Below are positions 2,396 through 21,597 of a stretch of DNA of 64,000 nt, in pieces. Position 1 is the first letter of the stretch. Each line of letters opens with the position of its first letter. Under the pieces are notes generated by a model. It was not told the origin of the DNA. It did no database searches and saw only the letters and a list, made by a program, of their open reading frames with translations. The DNA is from Phallus indusiatus (taxonomy: Eukaryota; Basidiomycota; Agaricomycetes; Phallales; Phallaceae): positions 806,001-870,000 of the forward strand of contig JAQFWX010000017.1 in assembly GCA_027605045.1 (NCBI GenBank), in the 5' to 3' direction. The position numbers and the translations under genes are program-made.

Positions 2396-2981
2396 GGTCG
2401 AGAAGAGGAACAATTCATGTCACGTGATCTTAGCCGTGATAACATTTATCTTCTAAGATTCGAGAGATTCGGTATGACGAAGTTATGGAATTCCAAAAGG
2501 TGTGCAATATGATAATAAATACATAGGTTTTTATCCGAAAGACAATCCGATACTAAAATAAAGCTGCACATGAAAAAGAGATGAGAAAAGTGATAATTTG
2601 AGGGATACTAATGGATACTCACCAAATTATGAAACTCCAGCATCACAACTTGCTAATATACACTTCTCTCTTATATTCCCCCACCTCTAATCCATCCTGC
2701 GCCTTGAAAACGACTCGTTTGCTTGCGCAGGAGTTCCATGCCGGCCTGTTTTCTGGCGAACATGGAAAAGCATATTTTCTGAGAATAAAGTTAGCGCATA
2801 TGCTAGAGAACATCAATAGGAAGCTACCGTTAAAATTTTGGGCTGAAATCTTGAGAATTCGTTGAGATATCGTGCGCGCAAGATCGAAGGCGAAATGGGT
2901 CCAGCATGTAAGCGTGCGCATTACATAAGTAAAAGCGCTGTAAGCAAGCGAAATTAACCCTTCCTATTACAGGAGGATTCA
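2396..2981. other. Intergenic stretch before the gypsy element
   Basis: No gene can be supported here. Open frames exist on both strands (2611..2865 plus, 2643..2921 minus) but overlap each other and have no clear family pattern. The 5' LTR expected for the gypsy element (TGTAACGG start) is not visible in this stretch, so the element's left end must lie here or be lost. Confidence 0.5.
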
Positions 2982-4340
2982 ATGGCTCCTACTACCAGGA
3001 GTCAGAGTGCACCAGATCGTGGTACACCTGATTCCAATCAGCCTGACCCACCTGGGCCAGTGCAAACTGAAAATCCCGACCCGTCTAGGGAAGGAACCCT
3101 CGAAGGAGAGTCATCCACATGGGAGAGAGTGGATGCATCAACACAAAATCCCACTCGTCCTGCGTCGCAGACGATGGAACATCAGCCCCAACTTGCTGAA
3201 GAAGATGAGGATGTAAAGTCCGTAGCATCTGGTCGCTCCAGACTTAGCGTTAGGAGCGATAGGTCCATCCGAAGGGATGAGGCCATGAACGCCGTTCACG
3301 CATCGTTGCTCGATGGCGTGAGGAACGGGAATATGTCCCCGTCAGAACTGCAGAGACTAGCTCGATTAATCGAGGACGTCAACGCAGGAGTTGAAAACCC
3401 TGAGCCAGAGCCTGTTACCACGGGCACTGACAGGGACCAGGTCAGGACGACAGACTTGTCTCCTGAAGCAGAGCCTGCACGAGCACGCTCTGACAAAGGA
3501 AAAAGCAGAGCGGTAGATCCGCCTGCATCAGGTACTGGATCTACTCGTACTAGACCAGCAGGGCCGACGAGTCACCTTGCATATCAATTCACAAACCCAG
3601 CCCCACAAGCTAGGTTTGTTACACCGACGGGACCGACATATGCCAGTCCGTCACCAGCAACAGCTGGCAATTCCCAATCCCCTGAGCCTGCACCAACAGG
3701 CACCAGGCAACGTTCCCAGAACGCTACCCCAGGACCGAGTACGCGTCCTGTTAGACCTCCTACCCAAGGAGCTACAGCATATACAGCTCCTAGGAATCCC
3801 GGCCCCGAGATAGAGGCTGGCAGAGAAACAGTGAGACGGATGTACCATTTCACAAGACGACTGCCTCACGAGTCTGACGCGGTTGGTGACTATATTGACA
3901 CCGAGATAGCCACGCGACTGGTGAACCAGTCGCGAAATGGAGCACCCCCACGAGAGGATGCTGAAGTGATCGCTCAAGCTGCCCTCGAATACCAGAGGAT
4001 AGCAGGGCTACTCTCCGACAGAGCAATCTGTACACATGCATGGGCTGTGGAGGCGGCCACTAATGCACTCGAGGAAGCCGTAGCAGGCTCCCTCGAGACT
4101 GACACTCCCAACGAGCAGCAACTGCGGATCATACAAGATAGAATCCGCATCGCGAGGGACGTGCGTATGAACGCGGTCCGCCATGCTCGTGTGTTTGAAG
4201 GTGGCTATAATGCCATCACTGGCGATAGAATCCCATCGCCAGATCCAGCCACAAGCTCTAGTCGTCCAGATGACAGAGCGCCACCACCTGGCAGACAACT
4301 GCCCAGTGCCAAGGCAAAGTGCCGAGCCCAGTGGGCATAG
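2982..4340 (+). CDS. Gypsy ORF1, Pro/Thr/Ser-rich gag-leader protein
   Basis: A 452-aa open frame starting MAPTTRSQS, a start often seen in basidiomycete gypsy proteins (recall). The first ~290 residues are low-complexity, rich in Pro, Thr, Ser and charged residues. Residues about 290-410 are more ordered and helical, with no motif I can name. The frame overlaps the following gag-pol frame by 158 nt (4183..4340), in a different phase, so either the two are joined by ribosomal frameshifting, or an indel split one long gag. It is therefore uncertain whether this is a separate protein or the N-terminus of Gag. Confidence 0.75.
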   Translation: MAPTTRSQSAPDRGTPDSNQPDPPGPVQTENPDPSREGTLEGESSTWERVDASTQNPTRPASQTMEHQPQLAEEDEDVKSVASGRSRLSVRSDRSIRRDEAMNAVHASLLDGVRNGNMSPSELQRLARLIEDVNAGVENPEPEPVTTGTDRDQVRTTDLSPEAEPARARSDKGKSRAVDPPASGTGSTRTRPAGPTSHLAYQFTNPAPQARFVTPTGPTYASPSPATAGNSQSPEPAPTGTRQRSQNATPGPSTRPVRPPTQGATAYTAPRNPGPEIEAGRETVRRMYHFTRRLPHESDAVGDYIDTEIATRLVNQSRNGAPPREDAEVIAQAALEYQRIAGLLSDRAICTHAWAVEAATNALEEAVAGSLETDTPNEQQLRIIQDRIRIARDVRMNAVRHARVFEGGYNAITGDRIPSPDPATSSSRPDDRAPPPGRQLPSAKAKCRAQWA

Positions 4341-6029
4341 GCAACCTTCTGCAAATCCAGCAGAAGCACCGCGTATCGATACATATGATGGATACGCTCG
4401 TCAACCACAGTATGGCGAGGATCTCCACGCCACACCGTTCGACGAAGAACGTGCTGAAAGATTTGATCCTTTCAGCGACGACGCCCCAGTACTCGAGGGC
4501 GTCATAGCCATGGTTCAAGAAGCCCTGATTGCAAACAGGGATATGATGCCAGGCAACTCGCCCCTCGCGAAAGCAGGAGCGAAGATTGGGCTCCCACCCA
4601 CATACAGTGGCTCATCCAGAGCCGAAGACTTCGACAACTTTGTGTCGGGTCTATTACGCTGGCTACGCGTAAACCACCTGCTTGGAGAAGTCAGCCAAGC
4701 AGAGCAAATATCCTTTCTGGGCATGCGCCTAGAAGGGTTGGCCCAGGAATGGTTTACTCAAAACGTGGAGAGAGGCGTTCGCCCCCTCCACAAGTGGACC
4801 CTAGTCCCTGCGCTGCGGAGACTATATGATCGTTTCCTGCCACCCCACTCTAGAAGTGAGGTAGCGATTCAATTTGAACGCGAACGGCAGGGGTCGCACT
4901 CTGTACACGAATACATGAGCGCGCTGCTCACGCTAGCCAACAGACTAGCGCACCCTCCTGATGACTACACATTCAGGAGGAGGTTCCTTGATGGGCTGAA
5001 CCACAGCCTCGCCACTGAAGTAGCGTTCAGAGGCGGCAATCCTGAACAGATGACTGCTAAGGAACTACTTCTACTGACAATTCAAGTAGAAGAGGCGTTC
5101 AAGAAACGCCGCTCGGTAGCGGTGTCTCAAGGAAGCACTACCTGCCCAGCAGGTAACAGTAGCGGAGGCAGTAGTAGCGGTAGTGGCAGCAGTAGCAGCC
5201 ACAACAACTTGGTAAGGCAAGCGCATACCAACAATATGCGCTTGAACCAGAGGAACCACAGTTCCTCCACGCGTCCTCACAAGATGCGTACAAATGGTAA
5301 CTCCCCACGGGGGAACCGCCCCTCGAGTTCGTCAAACTCGAGAAACCATAGCTCGCAGACCACTAGGACTGCCCCAACTAGTACGAACAATCGCACTAGC
5401 ACAACCCCTCCCACGTGTTTCAACTGTGGGCAGGTGGGACACTACAGAAATGCGTGCCCCAGACTGAGACAGGTACGAGCCAATGTGGGTCGTATCGAAG
5501 AGGTTGAAGAGACCTCTGGCGAGACATCGAACGATGTCCCGCAGGAGAACGTGGAAGACCCCACAGCTGAACAAACTGTGGAGGAAGAGGTGGCCCAAGA
5601 CGAGCCCACCAACGACCCCGTCGAAGACAACGAGGGTATTCAATACCAATGGGATGATGATGACAATGGTCCCAGTGCGTATATGCTCCTCACCATTGAC
5701 GATGAGTATGAGGAACGTAGACTGCACTTCGCAGTCCACAAGTCATCCTTATTGGATGATGAAGACTCCTCGCTCGCTACGAGTAAGGAACCACTCTATG
5801 ACCATATGGCTAGAGTGAGCTCTCGTGCTCCGACACGAGACAGAAACACATTGAAACCCATTGAGGGTTTCTGGCCAGTCAATGGCCAATTGGCCCACTG
5901 CCTAGTCGACAGTGGATGCCAGGGGATGATCATGTCCCCTCATTTCTCTCTTGCCACCGGAGCAAGAACCTTCAAGCTCGACAAACCTGTCGTGCTACAG
6001 CTGGCCGTTAAGGGCAGCAAGTCTTCCAT

Positions 6030-6340
6030 TGTTGCGTACGCAAACAGGCTACGCAGAGATTTGTCAGCGCTCGGTATATGCGCCGGTCCGTCAATATTTT
6101 GCAAATTCCAATTATTTTGTACCTTTCACCCGTTCGCAATTAAACTACTAGCCTTTTCCATTGTTTTTAGATTACATTTTAGCACCATTCCAATTTCCTG
6201 GAAACTCCCAAACCATGTATATAAAAATCTTTCTTTAGCTTACAAAATACAAGAACAATGTTTCCCTCCTATTTCTCCCTCTGAGCACACATTCGCTGAT
6301 TCCCTTTCCTTCCCTGTTCGCTCCTGAGGCGCACGTATCA
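6030..6340 (+). repeat. 5' LTR of the nested element
   Basis: 311 bp, TG...CA ends, with a TATATAAAAA stretch near 6219 that can serve as TATA box. It lies in frame with the interrupted protease, so about 100 LTR-derived codons are appended to the broken frame (to 6327). Confidence 0.92.
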
Positions 6341-6523
6341 TTTGGTGACCACCGCAGGGAATCATGTTGTTTTGTGTGTCTCACTCCTCCTAAAAACATC
6401 TTCTACAACCTTTATTCTTGCCTTCCCCACTGTCTACATTGTTTTGCAATCTATACATTTATTCTCTTGCCCATTTCCCTATTCCTTCGACCTCACATTC
6501 ATTCCTTGTAAACCCTATTCATC

Positions 6524-9500
6524 ATGTCGCCCTCGCCAGTACCATTACCTCCTCGACGTTCGCCAGAAGCTCCTCGTTTCGATGTTGACGACCCTCTCTC
6601 GTTGTGGGATTATTTTGTGGATTACGAGCTCCTTGCAAAAGCAGCACAATTAGATGATAAAACAAAGATCAAGTACTCGACTATTTACCTTACTCGTAAT
6701 GATGCCGATTTCTGGGAATGCCTGGACGAGTATGAAGGCAGTGATTGGCAAGCTTTCAAGGACGTCGTTTTATCGCATTATCCTGGTTCTATCCCCACTG
6801 ATCGATGGACTTGTGAAGACCTGTTGGCCATTTGTGACGAGCAACGTACCAAGTTTATTCGAACGAGAGGTGATTTCGCCGATTTTGACCGCCGGTTCTC
6901 CACGATCTCGAGATCCTTGCTAGAGAATGGTTTAATGTGCCAACTGGAGGAGCGCAAGCTTTTCTGGAAAGCTTTGGATCAGTCTTTCAAGAAGGATATT
7001 TTCGACAGAGTACGACTTACCAACCCTGCATATACGTCGCGAACGATTTTGAAGCTATCCGAAATTCGCCATGCTGCTAGTCTAGAATTGGATGGAACGC
7101 CAGCCGAAACCAGTACCGTCGTCGCATCGCCAGCTCCAGTTCCGAATCTTCCCATTGTCGAACCTGTAAAGACCGAGCCATTTAGCATGGAACGTTTTAC
7201 TCAGCAGATGTCAGCGACGATGGCACAAGCAGCCGAGAAAGCGATTTCGAAAGTTCTTGATAGAGAAAGCATGTACTCACCTCCAGTACAGAAGAATGTC
7301 GGTTTTTCGAATCCAGTCCCCGCCCATGTCAGCCCAGCAGTTCCCGTGTATCCTCGAATTGTGTCCCAAACATCGCATGAAGACGAGTTCTCGGATCGTT
7401 TTTCAAATAGAGCCACCGTTGCGCCGTCTACTATCGGAACATCAAGGAAATTAGTCGAAACCGCTAGCATTTATCCAGTCAAAACTCACGTTGAACCAAG
7501 GACGAACCAGGACTCGTGTATTGCAGCTTTGGAGAAGATAGACGCCTACAAAGACGTTAGTGACGAAGCATTGGAGGACGTTTTGGAAATCTTGAAGGCA
7601 CGCATTCGAAAGAAGAAAGAGGCTGGAGAGAGTTTAGCACAAGGTCCCCAGGAGAGCCGAATTGTACCTACCGTTGCAGTGCCCGCTATTCCCGTTCAGG
7701 TCGTAGTTCCGTCGCAGCCAGTTCCTGAGCCAATTCCAGCCATCGTTTCGCCTAGTCGCCAAGTTTTGGACCAACATTTTGCCCCTAGTGAAGTCGCCGT
7801 CGAGCCCGTAGGAATCCCTAGTCATGTTTTGAAGCAGAAGGTTACGCTAAGTGTTGGGAAACTGCTTACCTCATGTTCAGATCTTCGTGCACGAGTCAAC
7901 GAAGCCATAATACACATGGAAAAGAGTTCGAGTAGAGATTCTGAGAAGATGTCGGTGGCGTCATCTATAGCGGCATATTCAGTCAAGGGTAATTCGTGTT
8001 TAGAAAACGTTGTCACTTACCCGAGTAGTCCTCGCGAAGCGCATATACCGTCGTCGAAGTTTGAAGAAGCGTCAGCTGAGGAGTCGTTAGCTGAAGAAGT
8101 CAGCATTGGAGAAGAGAGAAATTTGATTTTGAAGAGTCGTTTTGAAGAATTATCGGATACTGAAGAAGAGTCTAGCCTTGATTGTCAGTTTGTTTCTGAA
8201 GTGTTTGAAGATCGTCCCCCATTGTTTCCCCTATCCTTGCCTTGTGTTTTGAAATCTCCCAGAATTAAAATGTCGCCCATGTATTCACATTTCTCATATG
8301 TAAAGTCGCTACATACAGTCTCATCTATGTGTTGTCCTGCCCCTCATGTATCTGCTTCCCTTGTCACCATCACTAACCATTCTAGAGCCGCTTGCGCCGA
8401 GTCGTCCATTGCCACCGTCGTCCCAGAGGGTTCCGGAATGAAGCGTCGAGTTTTGAAGAAGGTTCCGCGGTTGCTATACGATCCTGGAGGAGAAGAATTA
8501 GCTTGTTTTGGAAGATTTTGGGCTACTGTGCCTACTCACCTGCAGTTAGGATCGCCGTTTCACGAGTCGCTCGTTCCCGTCAGAAATCCAGAATTCGCAT
8601 TCCAGCCTCAGTCCTCGACTTTGCATGCTTCCCTTGTGGGTTCTCTCTTCGTCGCAGCCACGCTATTATCGCCCATCGCCTTGCCCGTACATGTTAGTCA
8701 AGGAATCCAGCTTGAAACGTTTTGGATAGTCGTACCTGATCGTCTGCACCATGCAAAGTTGCCCAGCATAGTCATCTTCGCGAGGTCGTTCGGAAAGAAA
8801 GCGTCTATCCCTATCTCAATCGTTGAGCACGAGAGGACTATCGACTGGGAGAGAAGCATACTCACGATTACATTGGAACCAACTGGCATCAGTCATCGAT
8901 ATTGCCGCAGTCGTCCCATTTACTTGACACTTGCATTTGAGTCTGGAGACTCGATATTCTTGGTAGTCGATTTACTGGCAGATCCGTCTATAGCGTCACG
9001 AGAATTACCAAGTCGACAAAGGAGCGTACCAGCAGTTACGGGAGCCCAGTTCGTTTGCTCAAGCCCAGGTCGAACGTTTACTTTTGAGTCAGAAGGTCTG
9101 CGCTTGGCTTTCATCGATCTTTCCACGTTATTCCCGATAGTGCCGTCCCTGAATGAAGTCCTGAGTTTTAGTGTCATCGCTCAGGAAATAGCAAGAAGCG
9201 CACCTACTCGTTTCGTTCAGCCTCTAAAGTTCCATCTCCATCCGTTATCCACCGTCACGGCCTCTTTATTGCTCTGGATAGTAGGAAGGTTTCAAGGCTG
9301 CATTGCGCGTATCATCGATTTGGAGAGACGAGCCTTGGTCGAGAAACCTTGTATAAGAACAAAGCGGCACGACGAGACGGAGTTTCCTTACCTTGGAGCA
9401 AGAGTTGACAACTGTATCGGAGAAGAACGAAGCATATGTGTCTGTGGAAACAAACGATCTATTCAGCCGCGTCCATGCCAAAGTGTAGCAATACGTACGG

Positions 9501-10243
9501 TGCAAGGCGATCCTTTCCCTATCCACCAATGTTCCCTTATTCGCATTCGCCTCCTACTCCTCCTAGCATTTGCTTTCGAATTCAAAGACCCGCTGTCGTC
9601 ATTTTCGGTAGTCAAAGTGTCGATGGATCGTCCTATGATGTCGTTCGAAGTCGGATCGTTCACGCTGAGTGCCGCAGTTGTGGTCAAAAATGAAGAGTCT
9701 TCATATCAAGAACGGATCGTACCCACCGAGAAAAACGCCATGCATCGATATCCCTGTGTTGAGCCAGTACAGCCTCCGATGCTACCATTCCACCCCGACA
9801 ACTTGCGCATTTCCAATCTCGAATCGTCGTTTCACAGATCTGTACCGAATGTAAAAGTCATTGTCAATTCTCAAGCCATAGCGAATGTAGAGAAGATCAT
9901 ACCGGTAGTCGCTCCAGCTCCCATTTTCAGCTATCCCTTTTCTCCTCCATCGCCAACGTATCCTCCAACGTTCTATTCTTGTCTCGAAATGGTTCCTTCG
10001 ACACTTTTACGATCCGTAGTTTGGTTTAGAAGAAAGAGGAGATGGCGTCGAGACGAGTGTAATGCGAAGAGTACGAAGCGGAGTCCAAATCTAGCTGAGA
10101 TAAGCGTTAACGTCAGTAATCGCCCAATCATAAATTGCCGGTATTTGCCGTACCCCTCGTATTCGCTGGAGATATCATTAGTAGGAACGGATCCGGAAAA
10201 TGAACAAAACGACGCGTGGTCTCTTCCATCTGTTTCTTTTTGA
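6524..10243 (+). CDS. Giant gag-like protein of the nested LTR element (1239 aa)
   Basis: One uninterrupted frame. Residues about 20-190 have the helical pattern of a retrotransposon Gag (...DPLSLWDYFVDYELLAK..., later FDRRFSTISRSLL), followed by a Pro/Val-rich linker, a short coiled segment (about 340-375, KARIRKKKE) and a Ser/Glu-rich zone (about 470-560). Residues about 690-1010 look beta-rich and hydrophobic with no motif I recognise. There is no CCHC knuckle, no D(S/T)G protease and no YxDD. That such a long frame is open implies recent selection or a very recent origin. It may supply Gag while an autonomous relative supplies Pol. Confidence 0.75.
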   Translation: MSPSPVPLPPRRSPEAPRFDVDDPLSLWDYFVDYELLAKAAQLDDKTKIKYSTIYLTRNDADFWECLDEYEGSDWQAFKDVVLSHYPGSIPTDRWTCEDLLAICDEQRTKFIRTRGDFADFDRRFSTISRSLLENGLMCQLEERKLFWKALDQSFKKDIFDRVRLTNPAYTSRTILKLSEIRHAASLELDGTPAETSTVVASPAPVPNLPIVEPVKTEPFSMERFTQQMSATMAQAAEKAISKVLDRESMYSPPVQKNVGFSNPVPAHVSPAVPVYPRIVSQTSHEDEFSDRFSNRATVAPSTIGTSRKLVETASIYPVKTHVEPRTNQDSCIAALEKIDAYKDVSDEALEDVLEILKARIRKKKEAGESLAQGPQESRIVPTVAVPAIPVQVVVPSQPVPEPIPAIVSPSRQVLDQHFAPSEVAVEPVGIPSHVLKQKVTLSVGKLLTSCSDLRARVNEAIIHMEKSSSRDSEKMSVASSIAAYSVKGNSCLENVVTYPSSPREAHIPSSKFEEASAEESLAEEVSIGEERNLILKSRFEELSDTEEESSLDCQFVSEVFEDRPPLFPLSLPCVLKSPRIKMSPMYSHFSYVKSLHTVSSMCCPAPHVSASLVTITNHSRAACAESSIATVVPEGSGMKRRVLKKVPRLLYDPGGEELACFGRFWATVPTHLQLGSPFHESLVPVRNPEFAFQPQSSTLHASLVGSLFVAATLLSPIALPVHVSQGIQLETFWIVVPDRLHHAKLPSIVIFARSFGKKASIPISIVEHERTIDWERSILTITLEPTGISHRYCRSRPIYLTLAFESGDSIFLVVDLLADPSIASRELPSRQRSVPAVTGAQFVCSSPGRTFTFESEGLRLAFIDLSTLFPIVPSLNEVLSFSVIAQEIARSAPTRFVQPLKFHLHPLSTVTASLLLWIVGRFQGCIARIIDLERRALVEKPCIRTKRHDETEFPYLGARVDNCIGEERSICVCGNKRSIQPRPCQSVAIRTVQGDPFPIHQCSLIRIRLLLLLAFAFEFKDPLSSFSVVKVSMDRPMMSFEVGSFTLSAAVVVKNEESSYQERIVPTEKNAMHRYPCVEPVQPPMLPFHPDNLRISNLESSFHRSVPNVKVIVNSQAIANVEKIIPVVAPAPIFSYPFSPPSPTYPPTFYSCLEMVPSTLLRSVVWFRRKRRWRRDECNAKSTKRSPNLAEISVNVSNRPIINCRYLPYPSYSLEISLVGTDPENEQNDAWSLPSVSF

Positions 10244-11374
10244 ATTGTCTGCGTTTTCTCTTCCTTACATTTTCTCTTCCTAAAAATCTCTCAAGTTCTG
10301 TTTTTAAATCTCATGTCGCAATCTCTTTTCTGATTTTCATGTTCTTTGCTCTGTAAAATCATGTTAGCCGTTTCATTTTCTTTCCCTCTTTAAATTCCGT
10401 TTTCTTTTCTTTTATTGGCACACCAGACGACGAGGATACAGGGTTCGGTCCCCGATTATATGCAAGAAAACGTTCCAGCTACTCGCAGTCATTCAGAAAT
10501 CGTCGACGAGCAGTGCAGCATCTATGCCGCCCAAATCCAAAATAGGACGCGATCAGAGTTTCGCCTTTCCATCGAGGACTGTGTGGTAAATCGTATCAAC
10601 TCTTTTCTCTCAAATCGACGCACAGACCAAAGGTTTCCAACTGTAATTCATCTCGGGATTCGTACATTCATCATCGCTTTCGCTTTATCCATCGTGCAAA
10701 TAGGACTGTGTCGCGCCCTTCTCATCGTCTCGCATTCTCCCTTTTATTCTTTCGACTTCCACCACAATCTTCTGCATTTGTACAAGCGTTAGCACTCCCA
10801 ACTCGACAAGATTTCGAACTCATACTGGACCGTACGATCGACTCGTTTCTCTTTCAAAAATCGTCAAGAGCGCACACACTATTTCGAGACAGTAATAAAA
10901 GCTAGCGGCATTTCTCTCCAACAACTTCAACTGTATCAATGAAGGTTCTCAGTCTCGCTTTTCATTCAGTTTATTCATGTCATCGCTCCTTCGCTACTTG
11001 CGGTTTTACTCATACAAATGGGATTGTCGTGTGCCTGCTTTTATTGGTTTTATCTTGCCATCCACTTTTGATGTTGATTTTCGTCTTTTCCGTTCTATTG
11101 TCTCGAGTCTCGTCTTTCCGTCTAGCATCTCTTCCTATTTTATCATCGTCTCCATCCTACGTCTCGCGTTCTCGTCAATATTTCGTCCGTCGTCGTCGTC
11201 GTCGTCTCACTATTTTTCGTCTCGTGTCGAACGTCCGTTGCACATGCTGGATTCCTCGCGTCACTCAATTTCACGGCTCACGGTATGACTTAGAGATGAT
11301 TGGAGATGGTTTTCAGGCGGATTTTTTTTATGTGTCACTAACGACGGAGCGTTAGTATTAAGGTCCCCAGGAGG
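10244..11374 (+). other. Non-coding 3' internal region of the nested element
   Basis: T/C-rich, with several short unrelated open frames (for example 10415..10792 and 10939..11355) that have no family pattern and no shared phase. It is probably 3' UTR or decayed pol. It ends at the polypurine-like AGGAGG before the 3' LTR. Confidence 0.6.
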
Positions 11375-11685
11375 TGTTGCGTACGCAAACAGGCTACGCA
11401 GAGATTTGTCAGCGCTCGGTATATGCGCCGGTCCGTCAATATTTTGCAAATTCCAATTATTTTGTACCTTTCACCCGTTCGCAATTAAACTACTAGCCTT
11501 TTCCATTGTTTTTAGATTACATTTTAGCACCATTCCAATTTCCTGGAAACTCCCAAATCATGTATATAAAAATCTTTCTTTAGCTTACAAAATACAAGAA
11601 CAATGTTTCCCTCCTATTTCTCCCTCTGAGCACACATTCGCTGATTCCCTTTCCTTCCCTGTTCGCTCCTGAGGCGCACGTATCA
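11375..11685 (+). repeat. 3' LTR of the nested element
   Basis: Same length as the 5' LTR, with one substitution seen over 311 bp. It is followed directly by the second CCAT and the continuation of the gypsy protease (…QYGTYTRIQF…). Confidence 0.92.
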
Positions 11686-12452
11686 CCATCCAGTATGGAA
11701 CATACACCCGAATCCAATTCGGAGGTGTCGATGTCCAAGAGTACTTCGACATCGTCAACATCGATCACTATGATGTGATCATTGGCGTCCCATTCCTGAG
11801 ACGCTATAATATCTGCCTGGATTTCAGCAGAGGTACAATCACCCGCGACGGCGAGGTGATTGACACCAATCACCATGTGATTGGACACGCTCCTGAAACA
11901 GGAGCGATGGTGCTAGCCAGCACCCAACATTCCAGCTCCTCTGTCCCTGAGATGACGGAAGAGAATATCCCAGCACTCATCGAGTACTGGAAGAACAAGT
12001 ACAGTGACCTTTTCGGTCCTGTCCCTTCCCGACTTCCCCCGTTTCGGGAAGTGAATCATCAGATTCCTCTTATTGAACCCAATAAGAAGATCCGGTACCA
12101 CCTTCCCAGGTGCCCGGATGCGCTCAAAGCGCTACTCGCTGAGAAGATTCAGCGATACGTAGCTGCAGGTTGGTGGGAACCAACTGTAGCTACACAGGCA
12201 ATCCCCATGCTTTGCCTGCAGAAACGAGCCGTGGTCTTAGCACTACGGACCGTGTTCGATCTGCGCCTGCAGAACGAAAACACAGAGAAGGACGTAACGC
12301 CCTTCCCTGACCAGGAAACCATCCGCCAGAACGTGGTGAGACACAAATACAGATCAAAAATTGATCTGACTGAGGCGTACGAGCAAGTACGCATAGTCCC
12401 AGAGGACGTCCACAAGACAACCTTTGCCACCATCTATGGCACTTTCAAGAGC

Positions 12453-12830
12453 TGTTAGGGCGACTCAGGGCACACCTAGAGGAGGGAAAACCTAAGATCT
12501 ATTGGGGGGCAGCGACTAACTACTCACCTAGAGGAGGGAAAACCTAAGAGAACAAGCTTAGGTATCCCCCTCTAGGGAAAACGCATATAAGTACAGGATA
12601 TGAGGCGCCCGACTGATCCCCATGGGATCTGAGGAGATACAAACAGAAATCGAAAGAAATCGAAGAGATCGGGAAATCGAGAAAACGGTGAAAATAGTGG
12701 AAATGACAAAATACGGGAAATGAAGGAAATCGAAGTGCGAGATGAAATCGAAAGAAATCGAAGTGCGAGATGAAATCGAAAGAAATCGAAGAAATCGAAT
12801 AATAGGGCGAGGCGCTAGCGTACTGTAACA
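12453..12830 (+). mobile_element. Solo LTR A in the RT domain
   Basis: Starts TGTTAGGGCGACTC and ends GTACTGTAACA; 5-bp duplication AGAGC on both sides (12448..12452, 12831..12835). Contains a CATATAAG TATA-like box and two copies of the motif CCTAGAGGAGGGAAAACC. Excision with one AGAGC rejoins the RT as ...GTFKS-HVMQQGD.... Confidence 0.9.
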
Positions 12831-12915
12831 AGAGCCATGTCATGCAGCAAGGAGACTGCAATGCCCCATCGACGTTTCAACGTCTGATGACCCATATTTT
12901 CAGGGACTGCATCAC

Positions 12916-13266
12916 TGTTAGGGCGACTCAGGGCACACACCTAGAGGAGGGAAAACCTAAGATCTATTGAGGGGCATCGACTAACTACTCACCTAGAGGA
13001 GGGAAAACCTAAGAGAACAAGCTTAGGCATCCCCCTCTAGGGAAAACGCATATAAGTACAGAGTCCGAGGCGCCCGACTGATCTCCATGGGATCCGAGGA
13101 GATACAACAGAAATCGGAGTAGATCGAAGAGATCAAAAAATCGAGAAAACGATGAAAATAGTGGAAACGGCGGAATACGGGAAATGAAGGAAATCGAAAC
13201 ACGAAATGAAATCGAAAGAAATCGAAAAGATCGAATAATCGGGCGAGGTGCTAGCGTACCGTAACA
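12916..13266 (+). mobile_element. Solo LTR B in the RT domain
   Basis: Same family as solo LTR A (TGTTAGGGCGACTC...ACCGTAACA), 351 bp. The flanks are ATCAC and ATCGG, so the target duplication is imperfect (3 of 5). The RT catalytic YIDD piece begins right after it. Confidence 0.85.
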
Positions 13267-13353
13267 ATCGGTCGTTCGACGGATGCATACATAGACGACG
13301 TGTTCGTCTATTCAAACACGATAGACCTGCATCAGCAGCATCTAGAGAATGCC

Positions 13354-13750
13354 TGTCAGGGTACGCTACCGCGTCCCCTCATTTTTCCTTATTTATTATC
13401 ATCGGTATATGTCTATTTCTATCTCATTTATATTTCCCATGCATTACTTCTACCTTCCGTTTATTCTCTCCGTCCATATTTCACCTTCTCTACTCGCGCG
13501 CGTTGCGCGCTCGTACACAGCATGATGCCCGTGACATCACGTCGCTTAGGCTCGGCTTAGGCGCCTGGCACTTAGCTGTGTCAGGGCCGCACGCCGCGTC
13601 GTCGTTTTATGTATATAGTAGCTGTACCTAGAGTGAGGGTCCCTAAGCTTGTTCTCTTAGGATCCCCTCCCTCTAGGTGAGTAGTATAGGTATCTTCCAA
13701 TATATTACTTAGGATCCCCTCCCTCTAGTCTGAGCTGAGTAGCCCTAACA
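13354..13750 (-). mobile_element. Solo LTR C, reverse orientation
   Basis: Reads TGTCAGGGTACGC...AGCCCTAACA on the plus strand, the reverse of copy D. Perfect 5-bp duplication ATGCC (13349..13353, 13751..13755). Contains two copies of the CTAGAGGGAGGGGATCC motif and GC-rich palindromes. RT resumes in phase (…ENAFSRLREAQL…). Confidence 0.92.
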
Positions 13751-14815
13751 ATGCCTTCTCGCGTTTGCGAGAAGCACAACTTTACCTAAGTAGTCGTAAA
13801 GTTGACTTGTACTCTAAGCGACTGGAGTGCTTAGGCCACATCATCGACGATGATGGCATCCATCCCGATCACGAGAAGATGGATAAAATACGTGAGTGGA
13901 GAACTCCACGCACGTATAACGATGTCCAGAAATTTTTGGACCTCGTACAATACGTTGCGGCATACCTACCAGGGGTAGCCGCATACACTACACCACTATC
14001 AGGGTGTACGTACAACAACAGACCGTTTGTATGGACGCCGTTGTTGAACAAGTGCTTTGATTCAATCAAAGCACTCACGCAAAAGGCTCCTATCTTGAAG
14101 CCTATTAACGTGGACGACCCAGATCCAATTTGGGTCGTAACCGACGGCTCTAAATGTGGCGTCGGTGCCTATTATGGGCAAGGGCCTACATGGCAGACAT
14201 GTAGGCCAGCAGGGTTTCTCTCGAAGAAATTCACCCCTGCACAGTACAACTACCGCACCCATGAGCATGAGCTCATCGCGGTACTTGAAGCCTTCCTCAA
14301 GTGGGAAGACAAACTACTAGGGCGAAGATTCACCCTAGTAACGGACAATGAGGCCATGGTCCACTTCAAGACCCAGCCTCGCATGTCACCGCGCCAAGCA
14401 CGGTGGTATGAATACCTGTCTCGTTTTGATTACGAGACGATTCATGTCAAGGGCGTCACTAACAATGTCGCCGATGGCCTCTCTCGTTATTACGAAGAGG
14501 ACACTCTGGATGAGGTTCACCCTCCGGAGGTATACATCAATGCTGACGTTAGACTTGATCCCGAAGGGGATCATCTTCCCATCGAAAGAAGGGATGAAGT
14601 GAGAGTGAACATTATTACATGTTCACGAGTACGAGAGGAACCTCGAGTAGAAGGTCCCTCAAATACTATGCCTTCTGATATTACAGAAGTGCAATCCGAT
14701 GAGGATATACTTGCCCTAAGTGCAGAGCAAGACAGCAAGCTTCTTAAAGCCAAAATTGAGGGCTTTGCTGAATTTACCTCGCTGATACAGCAAGGTTATC
14801 ACAAGGACCCAGTAT

Positions 14816-15211
14816 TGTTAGGGCTACTCAGCTCACACTAGAGGGAGGGGATCCTAAGATAATATATTGGAAGGGAAACTAACTACTCACCTAGAGGGAG
14901 GGGATCCTAAGAGAACAAGCTTAGGGACCCTCACTCTAGGTACAGCTACTATATACATAAAACGACGACGCGGCGTGCGGCCCTGACACAGCTAAGTGCC
15001 AGGCGCCCAAACCGAACCTAAGCGACGTGATGTCACGGGCATCACGCCGGGTACGAGCGCGCAACGCGCGCGAGTAGAGAAGGTGAAATAGAGACAGAAC
15101 AAGGAAACGGAGAGTGAAAGTAAAATATGGAAATGATAAATAAAATAGAAAGGAAGTGATGCCGATGATAATAAATAAGAAAATGAGAGACGGCGGTAGC
15201 GTACCCTGACA
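14816..15211 (+). mobile_element. Solo LTR D between RNase H and integrase
   Basis: TGTTAGGGCTACTCAG...GTACCCTGACA, 396 bp, 5-bp duplication AGTAT (14811..14815, 15212..15216). Very similar to copies C and E. The pol frame continues across after removal (HKDPV then FKLVLANPNAH). Confidence 0.92.
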
Positions 15212-16803
15212 AGTATTTAAGCTGGTCCTTGCCAACCCAAACGCTCACAAGGCGTTTGGAATTAAAAACCAACTGATCTTTACCAAGAATCAGTTCCTCC
15301 GTGATGTATTATGCATCCCCCATAACGCATTTTACAAGGGGAGGAGGATCACTGAGATTATAATCAGTGAGGCCCACCAAATTGTTGGGCACTTCGGACG
15401 TTACAAAACGTCTCAGTACGTTAGACAAGCGTACTGGTGGAAATCGATGATTGAAGACATCGATACGTTCTGCAGATCCTGCGGAACGTGCCAGACCAAT
15501 AAAGGGGAGAATAATCACCCCAGTGGTCTGTTAAAACAACTCCCGATTCCCAATAGACCTTGGGAATCAGTTGGAATGGACTTCGTCGGTCCATTACCCG
15601 TTTCAAACGGCCACGACTTCCTATTCGTCGTGATTGACAGACTGACCTCTATGGTTCGTCTGATGCCAACCACCACCAAGCTGACCACCAAGGGCACAGC
15701 CTGGTTATACCTCAGTGAAGTCGTAAGACTCCACGGTGTCCCTGACTCAATCGTGAGTGACAGGGATGCACGATTCACTGCCAGGTTCTGGCAGGAACTA
15801 CAACGCCTAATGGGGACACGATTGCTCATGTCCACGGCGTTCCATCCGCAAACGGACGGATCTACCGAACGAGCCAATCGCTTGATTGGCCAAATACTTC
15901 GTTCTGTGATACAGAACGATCAAAAAGATTGGGCCGAAAGGATCCCAATGGTGGAGTTTGCTATTAATAGCAGCACCAGCGAAACCACTGGTTTCGCGCC
16001 GTTTGAACTCAATTACGGCTATCTTCCCAGATTGGGAAGGAAAATTGAGACGAACACCAAATTCAAAGGTGTTCAACACTTTGCTCAACAGGCAAAGTGG
16101 AATCTCATGATAGCGCATGACGCTATCATAGCCAATCGCGTTAAACAGGCTCACTACGCGAACAACTCACGGCGCGATGCACCGGAGTACAAAGAGGGTG
16201 ACCTCGTCTATCTGTCGACGAGGAATCTCAACCTCCCCAAGGGGAGAGTTAAGAAGTTGATCCCGCGTTATGTGGGACCATACAAAATATTGTCCGTTAA
16301 AGACAATATCACAGTGAAACTTGAGCTCTCTGAGGAGCTCAAGCAACGTCGCATAAATCCCGTATTTCACATGGATTTGATTAAACCTCACATCGCCAAT
16401 GACGATGAGAGATTTCCACGCCGCGATACACTCACGGCGTATGATTTTGGACAGCCAGACGATGCTGAATGGCATGTCGAGGAACTCCTAGCTCATCGCT
16501 GGAGTGGAACTCGCGAGAAAGATCTCGAGTTCCTAGTCCAGTGGACCCTTGGGGATACCACTTGGGAACCTTACAGTAACTGTAAGGACTTGCAAGCTCT
16601 AGACGAGTACTTGCAATTACGAGGCATAAACGAGCCTCAGCAGCTGCCACGACTATCCAATCACGGAGAGTCGCGGACCAGCAACAAGCGCCCAGATCCC
16701 ACTCGGGGATCTGCTTGAAGATCCCACCCACAGGGATCCACTGGCACTTCACTGCTACGCGGTGAGGTAATTTTCACTTGGGCGCTCCATGAGGCCGCCC
16801 AAG

Positions 16804-16810
16804 TATATAA
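16804..16810 (+). promoter_or_regulatory. TATA box candidate for the gypsy third ORF
   Basis: TATATAA lies 42 bp before the ATG at 16852 and 86 bp after the pol stop, followed by a pyrimidine-rich stretch typical of fungal transcription starts. This spacing would let the downstream ORF be transcribed on its own. Confidence 0.4.
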
Positions 16811-16851
16811 CCCAAAAGTCCGTTCACGGCCTTTTCTCCCTCAACACCCCC

Positions 16852-18609
16852 ATGCCTGACAGCAAGGGAAAGCAACGCGAACGATCACGCTCGCGGTCGC
16901 CTACGCCGCAACCTGTTAGTAGGTTCAAAAAAGCAGAGGCTCAACTGGCCCTGCAAAGGTCCGAATGGACCTTAGACGCGATGGATGGATGCATATCCGT
17001 CTATCACAATAATGATAGTTGCACTGCGTGCAACGACTTCGCCAGTCATCTGGCAGGCCCCGCTGGCAGCAGGGCGATCATCCTTGACCATGACGTGGTT
17101 AAGCAGGCCGTTTACAAGGCCTTTCCCTTCATAAAAAGGGAGTACTATCATCTAGACGAACGTCTAGAAGAAGCTGAAAAGGACGTCAAGTCCTTGACAG
17201 ATCACCTCGACGATGCGAATCGTCGTATCTACGAGTTGAAAGCTCGTATTGCTGAACTTGAACGTTCAGCGTCGACGGCAGGCCCGTCGATTTCCCCATC
17301 GACCTCCAAAAAGCGGTCGAGAGACCAGGCCGACAAAGCGCCTGAGCCACCCCAGGCAGCCCCTCTGCCTGATATCTTCAATGACATGTCGTCTGACGAC
17401 GACATGGAAGACATAGTCAATGATAACGACTATGATGATGACGCCTCCATCGCGTCGTCCACCAAACGCAAGCCTCAGCGTACCTACGCTGATGCAACCA
17501 AGGCATCGGGCTCTCGCGATGCTGCCCCGGTTTCTCCAAGGAAGCCCTCTGGTCCGTATCCACGGACCAAGCCAGGATGGGACTCCAATAGGGACCCATG
17601 GCCCTTCTTCGTCAAGGGCTTCGACCCCACTGTTAGTGGGGATCATTCTCTGGTGCCTGGCACCCCCAACCCCACTGCATGGTATAACACCTGCAGCCTC
17701 GACGAACCATTGTTCGTCGAGATTGGAACCCGGGTTTGGACCGACCCCCCGGTGTTCACGTACCCCGATGACAGAGGGGTTCACATGTGTATTTCATATG
17801 CATGGACTCGTTGGCGCAGATCCATGAAGGAGCGCCGCCTAGCGAGGAAAACAGCCAAGCTTGAAGCTATGGAGGCTGCCGCCAACCGTCCACCGGTGGT
17901 GTTCATCTCGGGAGAATTAATTCACCCCGAGATCAAGTATCTAATCAATACTTGGAATGCGGACCCTAACCAGGTCCCTCCCTACATCCGACTAATGTCG
18001 GATGGATCTTTAAACCCTCAGGATGTTGAGGTGTTTGCTTGGCTCAAGAGAGTCACACGTACTCGTGAAGTATGTGCCAAGTTTCTCGAGAAGGCGGCTG
18101 AATGCCTCCTCGACCCCGCACTTACTGTGTGGGAAGAAATTCTCGGTGGTAGGGGTAATTCCTCCACCCACCTACCTTCCACTCTTATGGAAGGCTACAC
18201 TCGTGCCTTCGAGTGTAAATCCCCCTCCTCCATTACCATAGAGGAGGTGATTCGCTCCATGCATGCCAATGGAGCGACGACAAGACGCGTCACTGAGGTG
18301 ATCGCGCCCCTTCTCCAACGTTACGCCAATGGGGAAGATGTCAATCGCATCGCGCATGACTATCGTGTGCGCCGTGGACTGGATCGTCCAACAAAAAAGG
18401 CGCGTACGACTCAGTCGTCCGCCCCCGCCGTCCATGCGTCGGCATCACCTGCCAGTATTGTGGCAGGCCTGCCTAACAAGGTCTACTCCCCGTCCGTCCC
18501 AATTCAGATGACGGACGAGGAATTGTTGAGGCCCCCTGAGGACCTTGACGCGCCGCATCCGAGTGCCTCGGAGAGCATGGAGATTGACTACAGCAATCCC
18601 TCTGACTGA
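16852..18609 (+). CDS. Third ORF of the gypsy element, function unknown
   Basis: About 585 aa from the Met at 16852; the open frame reaches back to 16789 but the TATA-like box at 16804 argues for the later start. The N-terminus is basic (RSRSRSPTP), then an acidic/charged coiled coil of about 60 residues (HLDERLEEAEKDVK ... RIAELERSA), then a Ser/Pro linker with an acidic DDDMEDIVNDNDYDDD run. The C-terminal half (about residues 230-520) is a folded-looking region with conserved-type aromatic residues. It sits in the position of env in retroviruses, but I see no signal peptide or membrane segment, so an env role is not supported. It is as rich in short inverted repeats as gag-pol. Confidence 0.75.
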   Translation: MPDSKGKQRERSRSRSPTPQPVSRFKKAEAQLALQRSEWTLDAMDGCISVYHNNDSCTACNDFASHLAGPAGSRAIILDHDVVKQAVYKAFPFIKREYYHLDERLEEAEKDVKSLTDHLDDANRRIYELKARIAELERSASTAGPSISPSTSKKRSRDQADKAPEPPQAAPLPDIFNDMSSDDDMEDIVNDNDYDDDASIASSTKRKPQRTYADATKASGSRDAAPVSPRKPSGPYPRTKPGWDSNRDPWPFFVKGFDPTVSGDHSLVPGTPNPTAWYNTCSLDEPLFVEIGTRVWTDPPVFTYPDDRGVHMCISYAWTRWRRSMKERRLARKTAKLEAMEAAANRPPVVFISGELIHPEIKYLINTWNADPNQVPPYIRLMSDGSLNPQDVEVFAWLKRVTRTREVCAKFLEKAAECLLDPALTVWEEILGGRGNSSTHLPSTLMEGYTRAFECKSPSSITIEEVIRSMHANGATTRRVTEVIAPLLQRYANGEDVNRIAHDYRVRRGLDRPTKKARTTQSSAPAVHASASPASIVAGLPNKVYSPSVPIQMTDEELLRPPEDLDAPHPSASESMEIDYSNPSD

Positions 18610-18659
18610 TTACAGTCAGATGCCTCCTCTTCGCGATCCTATGACTTGGAGTCCGAGTC

Positions 18660-18671
18660 ACAAGGGGAGGA
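18660..18671 (+). promoter_or_regulatory. Polypurine tract of the gypsy element
   Basis: ACAAGGGGAGGA lies immediately before the LTR start TGTAACGG, the expected place for plus-strand priming. Confidence 0.7.
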
Positions 18672-18984
18672 TGTAACGGATCCACCGCATGCGGTGGATT
18701 GAGTATATGCCACTTAGGCATATGCAGAGGGCTTTGCCCTCTGCAGTAGTTACTATTACTTACTCTAATAACAGAGGCGCTTAACGCCTCTGGCTCGCGG
18801 CGAGCCATTATGTAATAACTATACATTAGTAGTAGCTACGCGCGTGCTGATTCAGCACGCGCAACTTGTTTTACTCCACAAAGAAAATACAGCACTTTGG
18901 TCTGTTACTTGTGGCGTGAAACTACAGCGTGATATAAACTGTGTACCGCAAGCGGTACACTATAAAAAGTAATGAAACGTTACA
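18672..18984 (+). repeat. 3' LTR of the gypsy element, made largely of hairpins
   Basis: 313 bp with matching ends TGTAACG and CGTTACA. It contains at least seven perfect inverted repeats with arms of 7-11 bp (18681-18698, 18705-18723, 18723-18745, 18772-18792, 18791-18807, 18840-18862, 18941-18960). A TATAAAAAG motif at 18961 is a possible promoter. The flank after it is AGAAC; no partner duplication can be tested because the 5' LTR was not found. Confidence 0.85.
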
Positions 18985-20610: not shown

Positions 20611-21201
20611 GGTCGGACAAGACACGAAATTGATCACAGACAGGCGCCCGTCACGCGTTACGCGTTACGCGTCACGGCTTTGCACGCAATTTCTCAATAT
20701 AGGCTCGCTTTGAAAAAACCGCGGCCTGTCAAGAGAATCCATTATTATTGGATCTGACGCGAAGTAATCAAATGAAGTAGTTTTAATTCGTATACACAGG
20801 TGTCTGCTGAACATCTACTTCTTTGAAAGTGAATATCTGAAAAAGCTGTGGACAAAATGGGTATTACAGGCTGACTACACTGTGGGAATGCAAAACTTGG
20901 TCAAATTTTAACGTGCAATGGAGTGCAAACATAAGCTGAATGACGAAATAAAAAAAGCCATTTATGCAGAAAGCCGCTTGTAAGAAGGTCCAGGACTTCG
21001 TTTCTAATTGAAAGTATGCTTGGTTCATATCAAACTCGGCTTTTAGCATTAATTGTTCACTCGGAAACTGGATAATTTAAATTTTGGATGCGCGCGCCAG
21101 TGGTAGTACGGCCTGTGATACTTAGCCTGTGATACCACCTATCAACAATCGGGTGGTCCGTGCGCAATGCGCCAGGGATCTATATATACTGGACTCCCCG
21201 C
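20611..21201. other. Non-coding, no supported gene
   Basis: Contains a GTTACGC/GTCACGC tandem at about 20650-20685 and a short direct repeat around GCCTGTGATA at 21110-21135. The open frames are short and unrelated to known families. Confidence 0.5.
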
Positions 21202-21597
21202 TGTCAGGGTACGCTACCGCCGTCTCTCATTTTCTTATTTATTATCATCGGCATCATTTCCTTTCTATCTTATTTATCATTTCCATATTTTACTTTCACT
21301 CTCCGTTTCCTTGTTCTGTCTCTATTTCACTTTCTTTACTCGCGCGCGTCGCGCGCTCGTACCCGGCGTGATGCCCGTGACATCACGTCGCTTAGGTTCG
21401 GTTTGGGCGCCTGGCACTTAGCTGTGTCAGGGCCGCACGCCGCGTCGTTGTTTTATGTATATAGTAGCTGTACCTAGAGTGAGGGTCCCTAAGCTTGTTC
21501 TCTTAGGATCCCCTCCCTCTAGGTGAGTAGTTAGTCTCCCTTCCAATATATTATCTTAGGATCCCCTCCCTCTAGCCTGAGCTGAGTAGCCCTAACA
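21202..21597 (-). mobile_element. Solo LTR E, same family as C and D
   Basis: TGTCAGGGTACGC...AGCCCTAACA, 396 bp, perfect 5-bp duplication CCCGC (21197..21201, 21598..21602). It shows the same GATCCCCTCCCTCTAG repeats and the GCGCGCGTCGCGCGC palindrome as C and D. It lies outside the gypsy element, so the family is generally active. Confidence 0.92.

Follow-up and report, generated by a model that had tools for sequence, protein, structure and literature searches.

A Ty3/gypsy-type LTR retrotransposon in Phallus indusiatus carries short, perfect hairpins (arms of 7-12 bp) at intervals of about 60-85 bases over its whole length, LTRs included, in its coding and non-coding parts alike, and at roughly ten times the number found in codon-preserving shuffles of its open reading frames. 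The excess is strong in a single clade of elements, and its hairpins have persisted through divergence beyond a substitution-matched null. Our preferred reading, which we hold tentatively and at a little short of an even chance, is that the array is maintained by selection for a strand that folds upon itself, and that such folding is predicted to shield the RNA of the element and its complement from pairing with small RNAs of the host.

Anatomy of the element

Throughout this text, ‘the window’ denotes the whole 64,000-nucleotide stretch of DNA that was analysed. The element that it contains belongs to a family (F1) that was detected at 40 places, and is laid out as follows.

2941..6029, +, internal region, first segment (ORF1 and gag), hairpin-rich; alignment to other copies, gag and zinc-knuckle Pfam matches
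2982..4340, +, ORF1, 452 aa, without a Pfam match
4183..6029, +, gag-like ORF (PF03732, PF00098), overlapping ORF1 by about 160 bp
6030..11674, +, nested LTR element inserted in the window copy, not hairpin-rich and used as an internal control; identical 300-nt LTR pair at 6030 and 11375
11686..12452, +, second segment (start of pol); 95-98% to copies
12453..13749, no strand assigned, inserted DNA; less interrupted copies have about 157 bp at the same place
13750..14816, +, third segment (end of RT, and RNase H; PF17917, PF17919); 97-98% to copies
14817..15211, -, inserted repeat of about 395 bp, related to 13352-13751 and 21201-21597
15212..18671, +, fourth segment (integrase, chromodomain, ORF3; PF00665, PF24626, PF00385); alignment to copies
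16789..18609, +, ORF3, 606 aa
18672..18984, +, 3' LTR (TGTAAC...GTTACA), the densest hairpin stretch; of ten other copies, nine carry the same sequence ahead of position 2941, one of them being cut by the locus end

The frame of the gag-like ORF continues into the nested LTR up to 6327. Judged from its sequence, the hairpin-bearing element is a Ty3/gypsy chromodomain LTR retrotransposon, with the order of domains (gag, RT, RNase H, integrase and a C-terminal chromodomain) that defines this class, and with scores that for two of the domains fall just below the Pfam cut-off (Chromo, 24.8 and 22.0 against 25.1 bits; rve, 29.4 and 28.5 against 32.6). A full-length 5' LTR was not found in the window copy; LTR sequence stands at both ends of other copies. 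No homologue of ORF3 was found among the 7993 database candidates scored.

Excess of hairpins in the window

The original prediction held that the coding sequence of this element is saturated with perfect inverted repeats, and that the nested element and the host genes are free of any such excess. All 28 of the inverted repeats that it named proved to be perfect, with the arm length given for each. When arms of at least 7 bp and loops of up to 12 nt are counted, 19 hairpins are present in 2982-6029 (1.8 expected from base composition), 46 in 11690-16718 (2.9 expected) and 21 in 16852-18609 (1.1 expected), whereas the nested element (6341-11374) holds 3 against 3.1 expected, host genes at 61832-63625 hold 1 against 1.2, and the remainder of the window (19000-64000) holds 41 against 31.5. 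The inserted DNA at 12453-13749 contains two hairpins with arms of at least 7 bp and the insert at 14817-15211 contains one; neither insert is DNA of the element.

Codon-preserving shuffles (300 per ORF, with hairpins defined by arms of at least 7 bp and loops of at most 13 nt) give the same picture. Six ORFs in the window contain 86 hairpins in total against about 7.6 in the shuffles, an approximately tenfold excess in which a hairpin within the overlap of ORF1 and gag may be counted twice, because the two frames share DNA there. Individually, the counts are 8 against a shuffle mean of 0.84 for ORF1, 16 against 1.21 for the gag-like ORF, 10 against 0.79 for the ORF at the start of pol (11775-12458), 11 against 1.10 and 19 against 1.09 for the two that follow, and 22 against 2.54 for ORF3; none of the shuffles of these six gave more than 7. 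The ORF of the nested element contains 2, against a shuffle mean of 2.14. Dinucleotide shuffles concur. Thus the density was neither at the level of shuffled sequence nor equal in the controls, the two outcomes that had been named in advance as refuting the claim. Chance, base composition and codon usage were each considered as the cause, and were ruled out by the composition expectation and the codon shuffles.

The hairpins are local, spanning mostly 17-30 nt, and their number drops beyond a loop of 13; arm length and loop length are inversely related (rho -0.47). The predicted spacing of 30-60 bp was too tight, since centres in another copy (L011) lie 84 nt apart on average, with a median of 61 nt. 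The prediction was right to call the gypsy coding region hairpin-rich, but did not single out the LTR, which contains seven hairpins (arms of at least 7 bp) in 313 bp and is denser than the rest of the element. Four of its hairpins are as follows.

18680..18699, +, arm 10, loop 0
18723..18745, +, arm 10, loop 3
18840..18862, +, arm 11, loop 1
18941..18960, +, arm 9, loop 2; the inner part differs between subtypes

Other copies and other gypsy elements

The trait is common to other copies, to both LTR subtypes and to near lineages. Density ranges from 10.95 to 12.45 hairpins per kb across nine copies (the window copy and eight of the ten fetched), and the four ORFs of L011 contain 83 hairpins against 8.2 in codon shuffles, these 83 being about three quarters of the 108 found in that copy. 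A sister family (75% protein identity) displays the same trait more weakly, and in distant gypsies it is weak or absent: four in the same genome and 14 from elsewhere all have densities below the F1 level. A slight excess is nevertheless visible in two of the four and in several of the outside elements. In the same genome, and for one arm class, L032 surpasses the highest of 100 shuffles and L034 ties with it; the 14 outside elements together hold 50 hairpins (arms of at least 7 bp), where their shuffles give about 24, and a few of them beat all 40 of their own shuffles. At the strength seen in F1, the controls in the genome and the other gypsies rule out a trait shared by the genome at large or by gypsies as a group.

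Protein relatives of the Ty3/gypsy type, from Agaricomycetes and metagenomes, have the same pol domains as the element and are 48-60% identical to it among the best 120 of 846 hits; the four that carry an organism name come from Phanerochaete and Trametes. A pattern scan of viral contigs gave 82 matching stretches, of which none was a relative.

Pairing, strand and predicted folding

The stems are almost purely Watson-Crick. In predicted folds, G.U pairs make up 3.5-7.0% on the plus strand against 8.6-11.1% in shuffles, and they are reduced on both strands, less so on the minus than on the plus strand. Near-pure Watson-Crick stems are also compatible with a copying process.

The folding energy predicted in 350-nt windows exceeds that of codon-preserving shuffles by 33-41% in three F1 ORFs and by 14% in F2 pol, against -9.6% in the nested ORF, with no strand preference, the two strands being equal. 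Pairs within 30 nt account for 0.82-0.84 of all those predicted for the plus strand of F1 ORFs, against 0.56-0.60 in shuffles, and the predicted fold of F1 is the strongest among the nine sequences tested.

Single mismatches within stems are not evenly distributed. On the coding strand, A.C outnumbers G.T by 21 to 2 in the ORFs of L011 (p=0.001) and by 22 to 6 in those of the window (p=0.03), a set that shares ancestry with the former. A.C is over-represented, and the enrichment of G.T does not surpass that of the remaining mismatches; mutation supplies the two kinds roughly equally (12 A.C to 13 G.T; 71 to 52). The asymmetry is weak in F2 (25:11, with 9.9:6.2 expected by chance) and absent in F1b (6:6), and hints at a role for the minus strand.

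Persistence and change of stems

Between the pol genes of F1 and F2, which differ by 29.6%, 51 and 36 hairpins (arms of at least 6 bp) are found where about 8 are expected under a substitution-matched null, in which the observed substitutions are re-placed at random. Thirteen hairpins coincide, against 1.3-1.9 expected (null maximum 5-6 in 400 runs). Persistence above this null was also seen at 6.6%, 8.9% and 13.8% divergence, and so at every distance tested. Positions are partly kept and partly renewed: 14 of the 36 hairpin centres in F2 are shared with F1 (3.4 expected), and the remainder lie elsewhere.

Reliance is placed on this null because stems were picked as intact in one copy, so that a lower divergence of stems is partly an artefact; pairwise stem divergence as a sign of purifying selection was partly withdrawn, as ascertainment alone can about halve it. 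Silent sites in F2 stems with arms of at least 7 bp differ at 18/55, against 305/583 outside (p=0.007), and F1 stems compared with F2 gave no clear constraint at silent sites (p=0.08 for arms of at least 6, 0.44 for arms of at least 7). Among F1 copies that spanned 93% or more of every aligned piece, stem columns are as variable as the rest (144/1685 against 415/5360, with two divergent rows and a piece represented by under six rows set aside), a result that decay after insertion would also produce. Fixed columns in ORF1/gag that distinguish the window lineage from the main lineage are likewise not rarer in stems (43/722 against 119/2246).

Compensated double changes are few. F1b against F1 gave 5/174 and 7/274 pairs, compared with 0-1 for slid partners; in two closer comparisons they stayed at the level of the slid control (1 and 2 against 0-1 for L050; 1 and 2 against 0-2 for ORF1/gag). 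Individual stems illustrate the changes observed.

14605..14626, +, one pair A-T in the window, G-C in nine copies and A.C in one
15414..15436, +, kept in F2 with two compensated pairs
16287..16309, +, compensated pair, seen among F1 copies as well as in F2

The LTR stems are nearly frozen: in matches of more than 270 bp, fixed differences occupy 1/103 positions in outer stems against 29/171 in spacers (p=1e-5), and 5/45 in hairpin centres.

What maintains the hairpins

Quasi-palindrome correction, or template-switch mutagenesis, yields perfect inverted repeats with short loops. A reverse transcriptase that perfects imperfect hairpins by such correction or by snap-back synthesis could dispense with selection altogether, and several observations are in its favour: the near-pure Watson-Crick stems and low G.U content in the predicted folds of both strands, the short spans with few loops past 13 and the trade-off of arm against loop, the emergence of lineage-specific hairpins (in one of which a cluster of changes falls largely within a single arm), and the greater number of differences in left than in right arms (73 against 56) when F1 stems of at least 7 bp are compared with F2. 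Shared derived changes in stems comprise 8 gains, 6 losses and 2 doubles, with 4 of the 8 gains possibly mis-polarised. However, correction should rewrite one arm, leave the rate per site unchanged and generate abundant compensated doubles, whereas changes are correlated between arms (0.24-0.86), stems with one unchanged arm and at least three changes in the other number only 3/51 in F1 and 1/36 in F2 (arms of at least 6 bp), doubles are few, LTR stems are frozen, and A.C mismatches are over-represented within stems. We regard correction as rather unlikely. Both it and selection for RNA structure had been offered in the original prediction; persistence above the null supports the latter, and the scarcity of one-armed and double changes disfavours the former.

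Among readings that invoke structure, it is somewhat less improbable, though still unlikely, that the hairpins serve to compact or mark genomic RNA of the plus strand for its packaging into Gag particles, or that they tune its translation. Structure over the whole length, through all ORFs and LTRs, and the strength of the predicted fold would fit; but plus-strand G.U, which an RNA fold permits, is reduced, in-stem G.T is not specially enriched, and distant gypsies with a similar pol lack the trait. The functions named by the original prediction (packaging, frameshifting, small RNAs) agree with selection on structure, but form too narrow a list, because structure spans the whole element and no shared motif was seen by eye. 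That the minus strand alone must fold, most simply as first-strand cDNA in need of protection as single-stranded DNA or of organisation for second-strand synthesis, seems a slimmer prospect than either. It would account for the preponderance of plus-strand A.C (seen from the minus strand, G.U or G.T wobbles) over an even mutational input, and for the lesser reduction of minus-strand G.U; yet folding energy has no strand preference, and the mismatch asymmetry was noticed post hoc and fades in F2 and F1b. It is very improbable that the repeats are protein-binding, cis-regulatory palindromes, as PMC10760457 describes for plant (Sirevirus) LTRs: the LTR arms are indeed more conserved than their centres, but the sequence varies from one hairpin to the next, and some three quarters of the hairpins are within ORFs.

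Selection for a folded strand is favoured over snap-back correction on account of persistence above the null, near-frozen LTR stems and few compensated pairs, and selection rather than biased mutation would keep the hairpins; the pairing of longer arms with shorter loops, opposite to the trend of a simple stability threshold, counts against it. Such selection may favour folding along the whole element and not any specific signal, a reading suggested by the local spans, the lack of any motif seen, the partial renewal of positions and the near-pure Watson-Crick pairing. Because Watson-Crick pairs, unlike G.U, hold on both strands, we propose that folding must be preserved in the transcript and equally in the complementary strand, whether antisense, siRNA or first-strand cDNA, and such strands are predicted to escape pairing with host small RNAs. 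The host genome carries Argonaute (Piwi), RdRP and RNase III domains, and the function would be shielding from RNAi. The more specific proposal, that the array over LTRs and ORFs keeps both RNA and first-strand cDNA or antisense folded and evolved as a counter-defence against RNAi, is doubtful.

If selection for a folded strand is correct, a natural experiment is at hand (F1 strong, its sister family weak, distant cousins in the same genome nearly without the trait), and the purpose of genome-wide structure becomes directly testable in a host whose obvious sensor is RNAi rather than interferon. Were the mutational alternative true, it would mean a reverse transcriptase that writes palindromes.

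Comparison with known systems

No title or abstract opening in the literature searched reports an element with such a hairpin array, and to that extent the original prediction's statement that no described element has this property is uncontradicted, though RNA viruses provide a close analogue. Sireviruses (Copia elements of maize) have conserved palindromes with structures concentrated in their LTRs, and Ty3 elements are generally without an obvious peak, according to PMC10760457; conserved LTR palindromes are thus a point of likeness, and hairpins in every ORF tested a point of difference.

The analogue is the genome-scale ordered RNA structure (GORS) of positive-strand RNA viruses, in which, as set out in PMC7642675, hundreds of consecutive stem-loops occupy coding sequence, folding energy goes well past shuffles, and pairing positions are poorly conserved among relatives; PMC3950689 adds that innate sensors are poor at recognising structured transcripts. 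The element resembles them in a folding energy beyond shuffles along its whole length and in structure spread through coding sequence. It differs in that its LTRs are structured too, in spans mostly of up to 30 nt with few G.U pairs, and in an excess of 33-41% in three ORFs, against whole-genome viral means of about 7-17.5% with a top of 23.4% (single genes exceed 50%) in PMC7642675, figures that are not strictly comparable as the shuffles differ. Pervasive genome structure, if the preferred reading holds, would be a strategy available to retroelements as well, and no peculiarity of RNA viruses; the element is GORS-like, and stands outside the described set because its bearer is an LTR retrotransposon rather than a positive-strand RNA virus.

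Anatomy of the element

The element, about 9 kb long and bounded by LTRs of 313-322 bp, is a chromodomain retrotransposon of the Ty3/gypsy group. Its window copy is damaged: a full-length 5' LTR could not be found, and the copy is interrupted at three places:

6030-11674, nested LTR element, LTRs identical over 300 nt
12453-13749, insertion
14817-15211, inserted 395-bp repeat

The inserted DNA at 12453-13270 contains a unit of ~465 bp present twice, and occurs too in three other copies (L017, L018 and L022). A dispersed repeat of ~395 bp, perhaps a solo LTR, lies in or near the element at 13352-13751, 14817-15211 and 21201-21597, and in several other copies. Across the genome (67 Mb, 206 contigs), at least 40 places, including that of the window, match at least one 816-bp stretch at 97-100% (40 of 1364 candidates scored). 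Outside it, the nearest pol proteins among the best 120 matches listed are 48-60% identical, and the four that carry organism names come from Phanerochaete and Trametes, which makes an Agaricomycete the probable host.

After pol lies ORF3 (16789-18609, 606 aa), for which no match was found among 7993 database candidates scored; it is ~31% identical to the ORF3 (L028 3395-4855) of the sister family F2. Its shuffle means are 2.5 hairpins in codon shuffles against 1.3 in dinucleotide shuffles, and its amino-acid order itself favours hairpins.

Hairpin excess and its distribution

The original prediction, that the coding sequence of this element is saturated with perfect inverted repeats (arm at least 7, loop up to 12), was borne out: all 28 hairpins that it listed are exact, 19, 46 and 21 such repeats lie in the three element regions, where base composition predicts 1.8, 2.9 and 1.1, and six window ORFs (ORF1 and gag overlapping slightly) total 86 at loops up to 13 against a summed mean of 7.6 in codon-preserving shuffles. 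Four ORFs of another copy, L011, hold 83 against 8.2 in such shuffles. As had also been proposed, the nested element is not enriched (3 hairpins against 3.1 from base composition; its ORF, 2 against 2.1 in codon-preserving shuffles). Window 19000-64000 has 41 against 31.5 from base composition. The long nested ORF (6524-10243) falls below its own codon shuffles in structure, the opposite of the host element, with folding z of +5.1 and +4.4 in 40-nt windows and an excess of -9.6% in 350-nt windows.

Within the hairpin-rich family (F1), density at arm ≥7 is 10.95-12.45 per kb in nine copies (the window copy and eight of the ten fetched). The signal drops at the LTRs: in five copies, the elements hold 108-121 hairpins, the upstream flanks (2.0-2.6 kb) 3, 3, 3, 14 and 1, and the downstream 800 bp 4, 4, 1, 0 and 3; the flank with 14, that of L017, contains another piece of the family. 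In F2, no hairpin of arm ≥6 lies within the first 1200 bp upstream, and the LTR has seven.

Hairpins in pol at arm ≥6, ≥7 and ≥8, with shuffle means

F1: 54, 32, 18; shuffles 10.4, 3.3, 1.1
F2 (75% aa): 37, 13, 1; shuffles 9.3, 2.7, 0.6
Four same-genome gypsies (35-47% aa to F1 pol): 17, 9, 1; 8, 6, 1; 15, 5, 2; 9, 1, 0; shuffles 7.6-10.0, 2.0-2.7, 0.6-0.9

At arm ≥7, the first of these four gypsies has 9 hairpins, one more than the highest of 100 shuffles (8), and the third equals the top of 100 at arm ≥6 and ≥8. A further 14 gypsies hold 2-6 hairpins at arm ≥7, where shuffles give 1.2-2.4; summed, the excess is about twofold. Their contigs (L036-L049) come from records labelled as bacterial assemblies, likely through eukaryotic contamination.

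Geometry, composition and strand

Nine hairpins of the window copy have a loop of 13 and one a loop of 14; L011 has seven at 13, one at 14, three at 15 and five at 16, and mostly 0-1 at each length beyond. Most F1 hairpins span 17-30 nt in total, and most of those in F2 span 16-21 nt. Because longer arms go with shorter loops (in L011, mean loops of 7.5, 6.3, 5.1 and 2.6 for arms of 7, 8, 9 and 10; rho -0.47), span seems to be the quantity bounded in F1; the correlation is absent from F2 (rho 0.05) and slight in background (-0.11). No common motif was seen by eye. Left arms of L011 stems are C-rich (0.33 C, 0.23 G), right arms G-rich and loops A-rich.

When the folding of six F1 ORFs is predicted (four from L011 and two from the window), G.U pairs make up 3.5-7.0% on the plus strand against 8.6-11.1% in shuffles, and 9.3-12.9% on the minus strand against 14.9-17.8%; folding energy gave no strand preference. 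Single mismatches in otherwise perfect stems are A.C in 21 cases and G.T in 2 in the L011 ORFs (expected A.C share 0.60, p=0.001); for the window ORFs the numbers are 22 and 6 (p=0.03). An A.C on the plus strand is a wobble pair on the minus strand, and the excess, seen after several classes had been inspected, hints at the latter. The same lean is found in F2 and is absent in F1b, a related lineage; recent changes are about even.

Persistence of the hairpins: selection or copying

Persistence was compared with a substitution-matched null, in which the observed differences between real copies were re-placed at random same-base sites (400 runs; for F1-F2, codon position was also kept). At arm ≥6, descendants retain 45 hairpins against 27.8 at 6.6% divergence, 47 against 26.5 at 8.9%, and 26 against 12.3 at 13.8%; between F1 and F2 (29.6%) the counts are 51 and 36 against ~8, with 13 coincident hairpins against 1.3-1.9. 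At arm ≥7, the weakest results come from the step from L011 to the copy L050 (19 against 13.4, P 0.04) and from that to F1b (10 against 5.2, P 0.02). New hairpins arise as well: those of F1 lie mostly off F2 positions.

In the LTRs (window 18672-18984 and those of other copies), two subtypes, represented by 11 and 6 rows, diverge chiefly in spacers and loops, at 29/171 spacer, 5/45 inner and 1/103 outer-stem columns; two of eight substitution-matched LTR runs, each at arm ≥6, were not significant for hairpin number (P 0.05 and 0.23). The hairpin at 18791-18807 is an 8-nt shorter form of one with 12-bp arms in other copies.

Copying of one arm from the other would make hairpins, and predicts one-armed change, or double changes at the neutral rate. 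Changes are correlated between arms (0.24-0.86), F1 left arms changing somewhat more than right (73 against 56). Compensated doubles number 5/174 and 7/274 pairs for F1b against F1 (slid controls 0-1) and 8/880 among F1 copies (controls 1-4), but do not exceed slid controls in two closer pairwise comparisons. In F2 stems, silent-site divergence is below that outside at both arm thresholds (≥7, p=0.007; ≥6, p=0.03); F1 stems have no clear reduction (p=0.44 and 0.08). The reading that hairpins are kept by selection is therefore favoured, and copying is disfavoured. Counter to selection, stems within F1 copies vary like the remaining sequence, and in ORF1/gag the stems carry fixed differences no less often than the rest.

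Folding strength and comparison with structured RNA viruses

In 350-nt windows, folding excess over codon shuffles is 33, 41 and 38.5% in three F1 ORFs, 14% in F2 pol, 8 and 2% in two distant gypsies, and 6 and 11% in two outside controls. Piwi, RdRP and RNase III domains occur in the genome, so that the prerequisites are present for a putative role of F1 hairpins as an RNAi shield. According to PMC7642675, RNA viruses called structured have an excess of ~7-17.5%; 23.4% is given there as the record, and individual genes surpass 50%. The virus shuffle method differs from the codon shuffles used here. The closest kind to the F1 structure is the pervasive genome structure of RNA viruses (GORS), whose presumed function, according to PMC3950689, is protection against recognition by the host.
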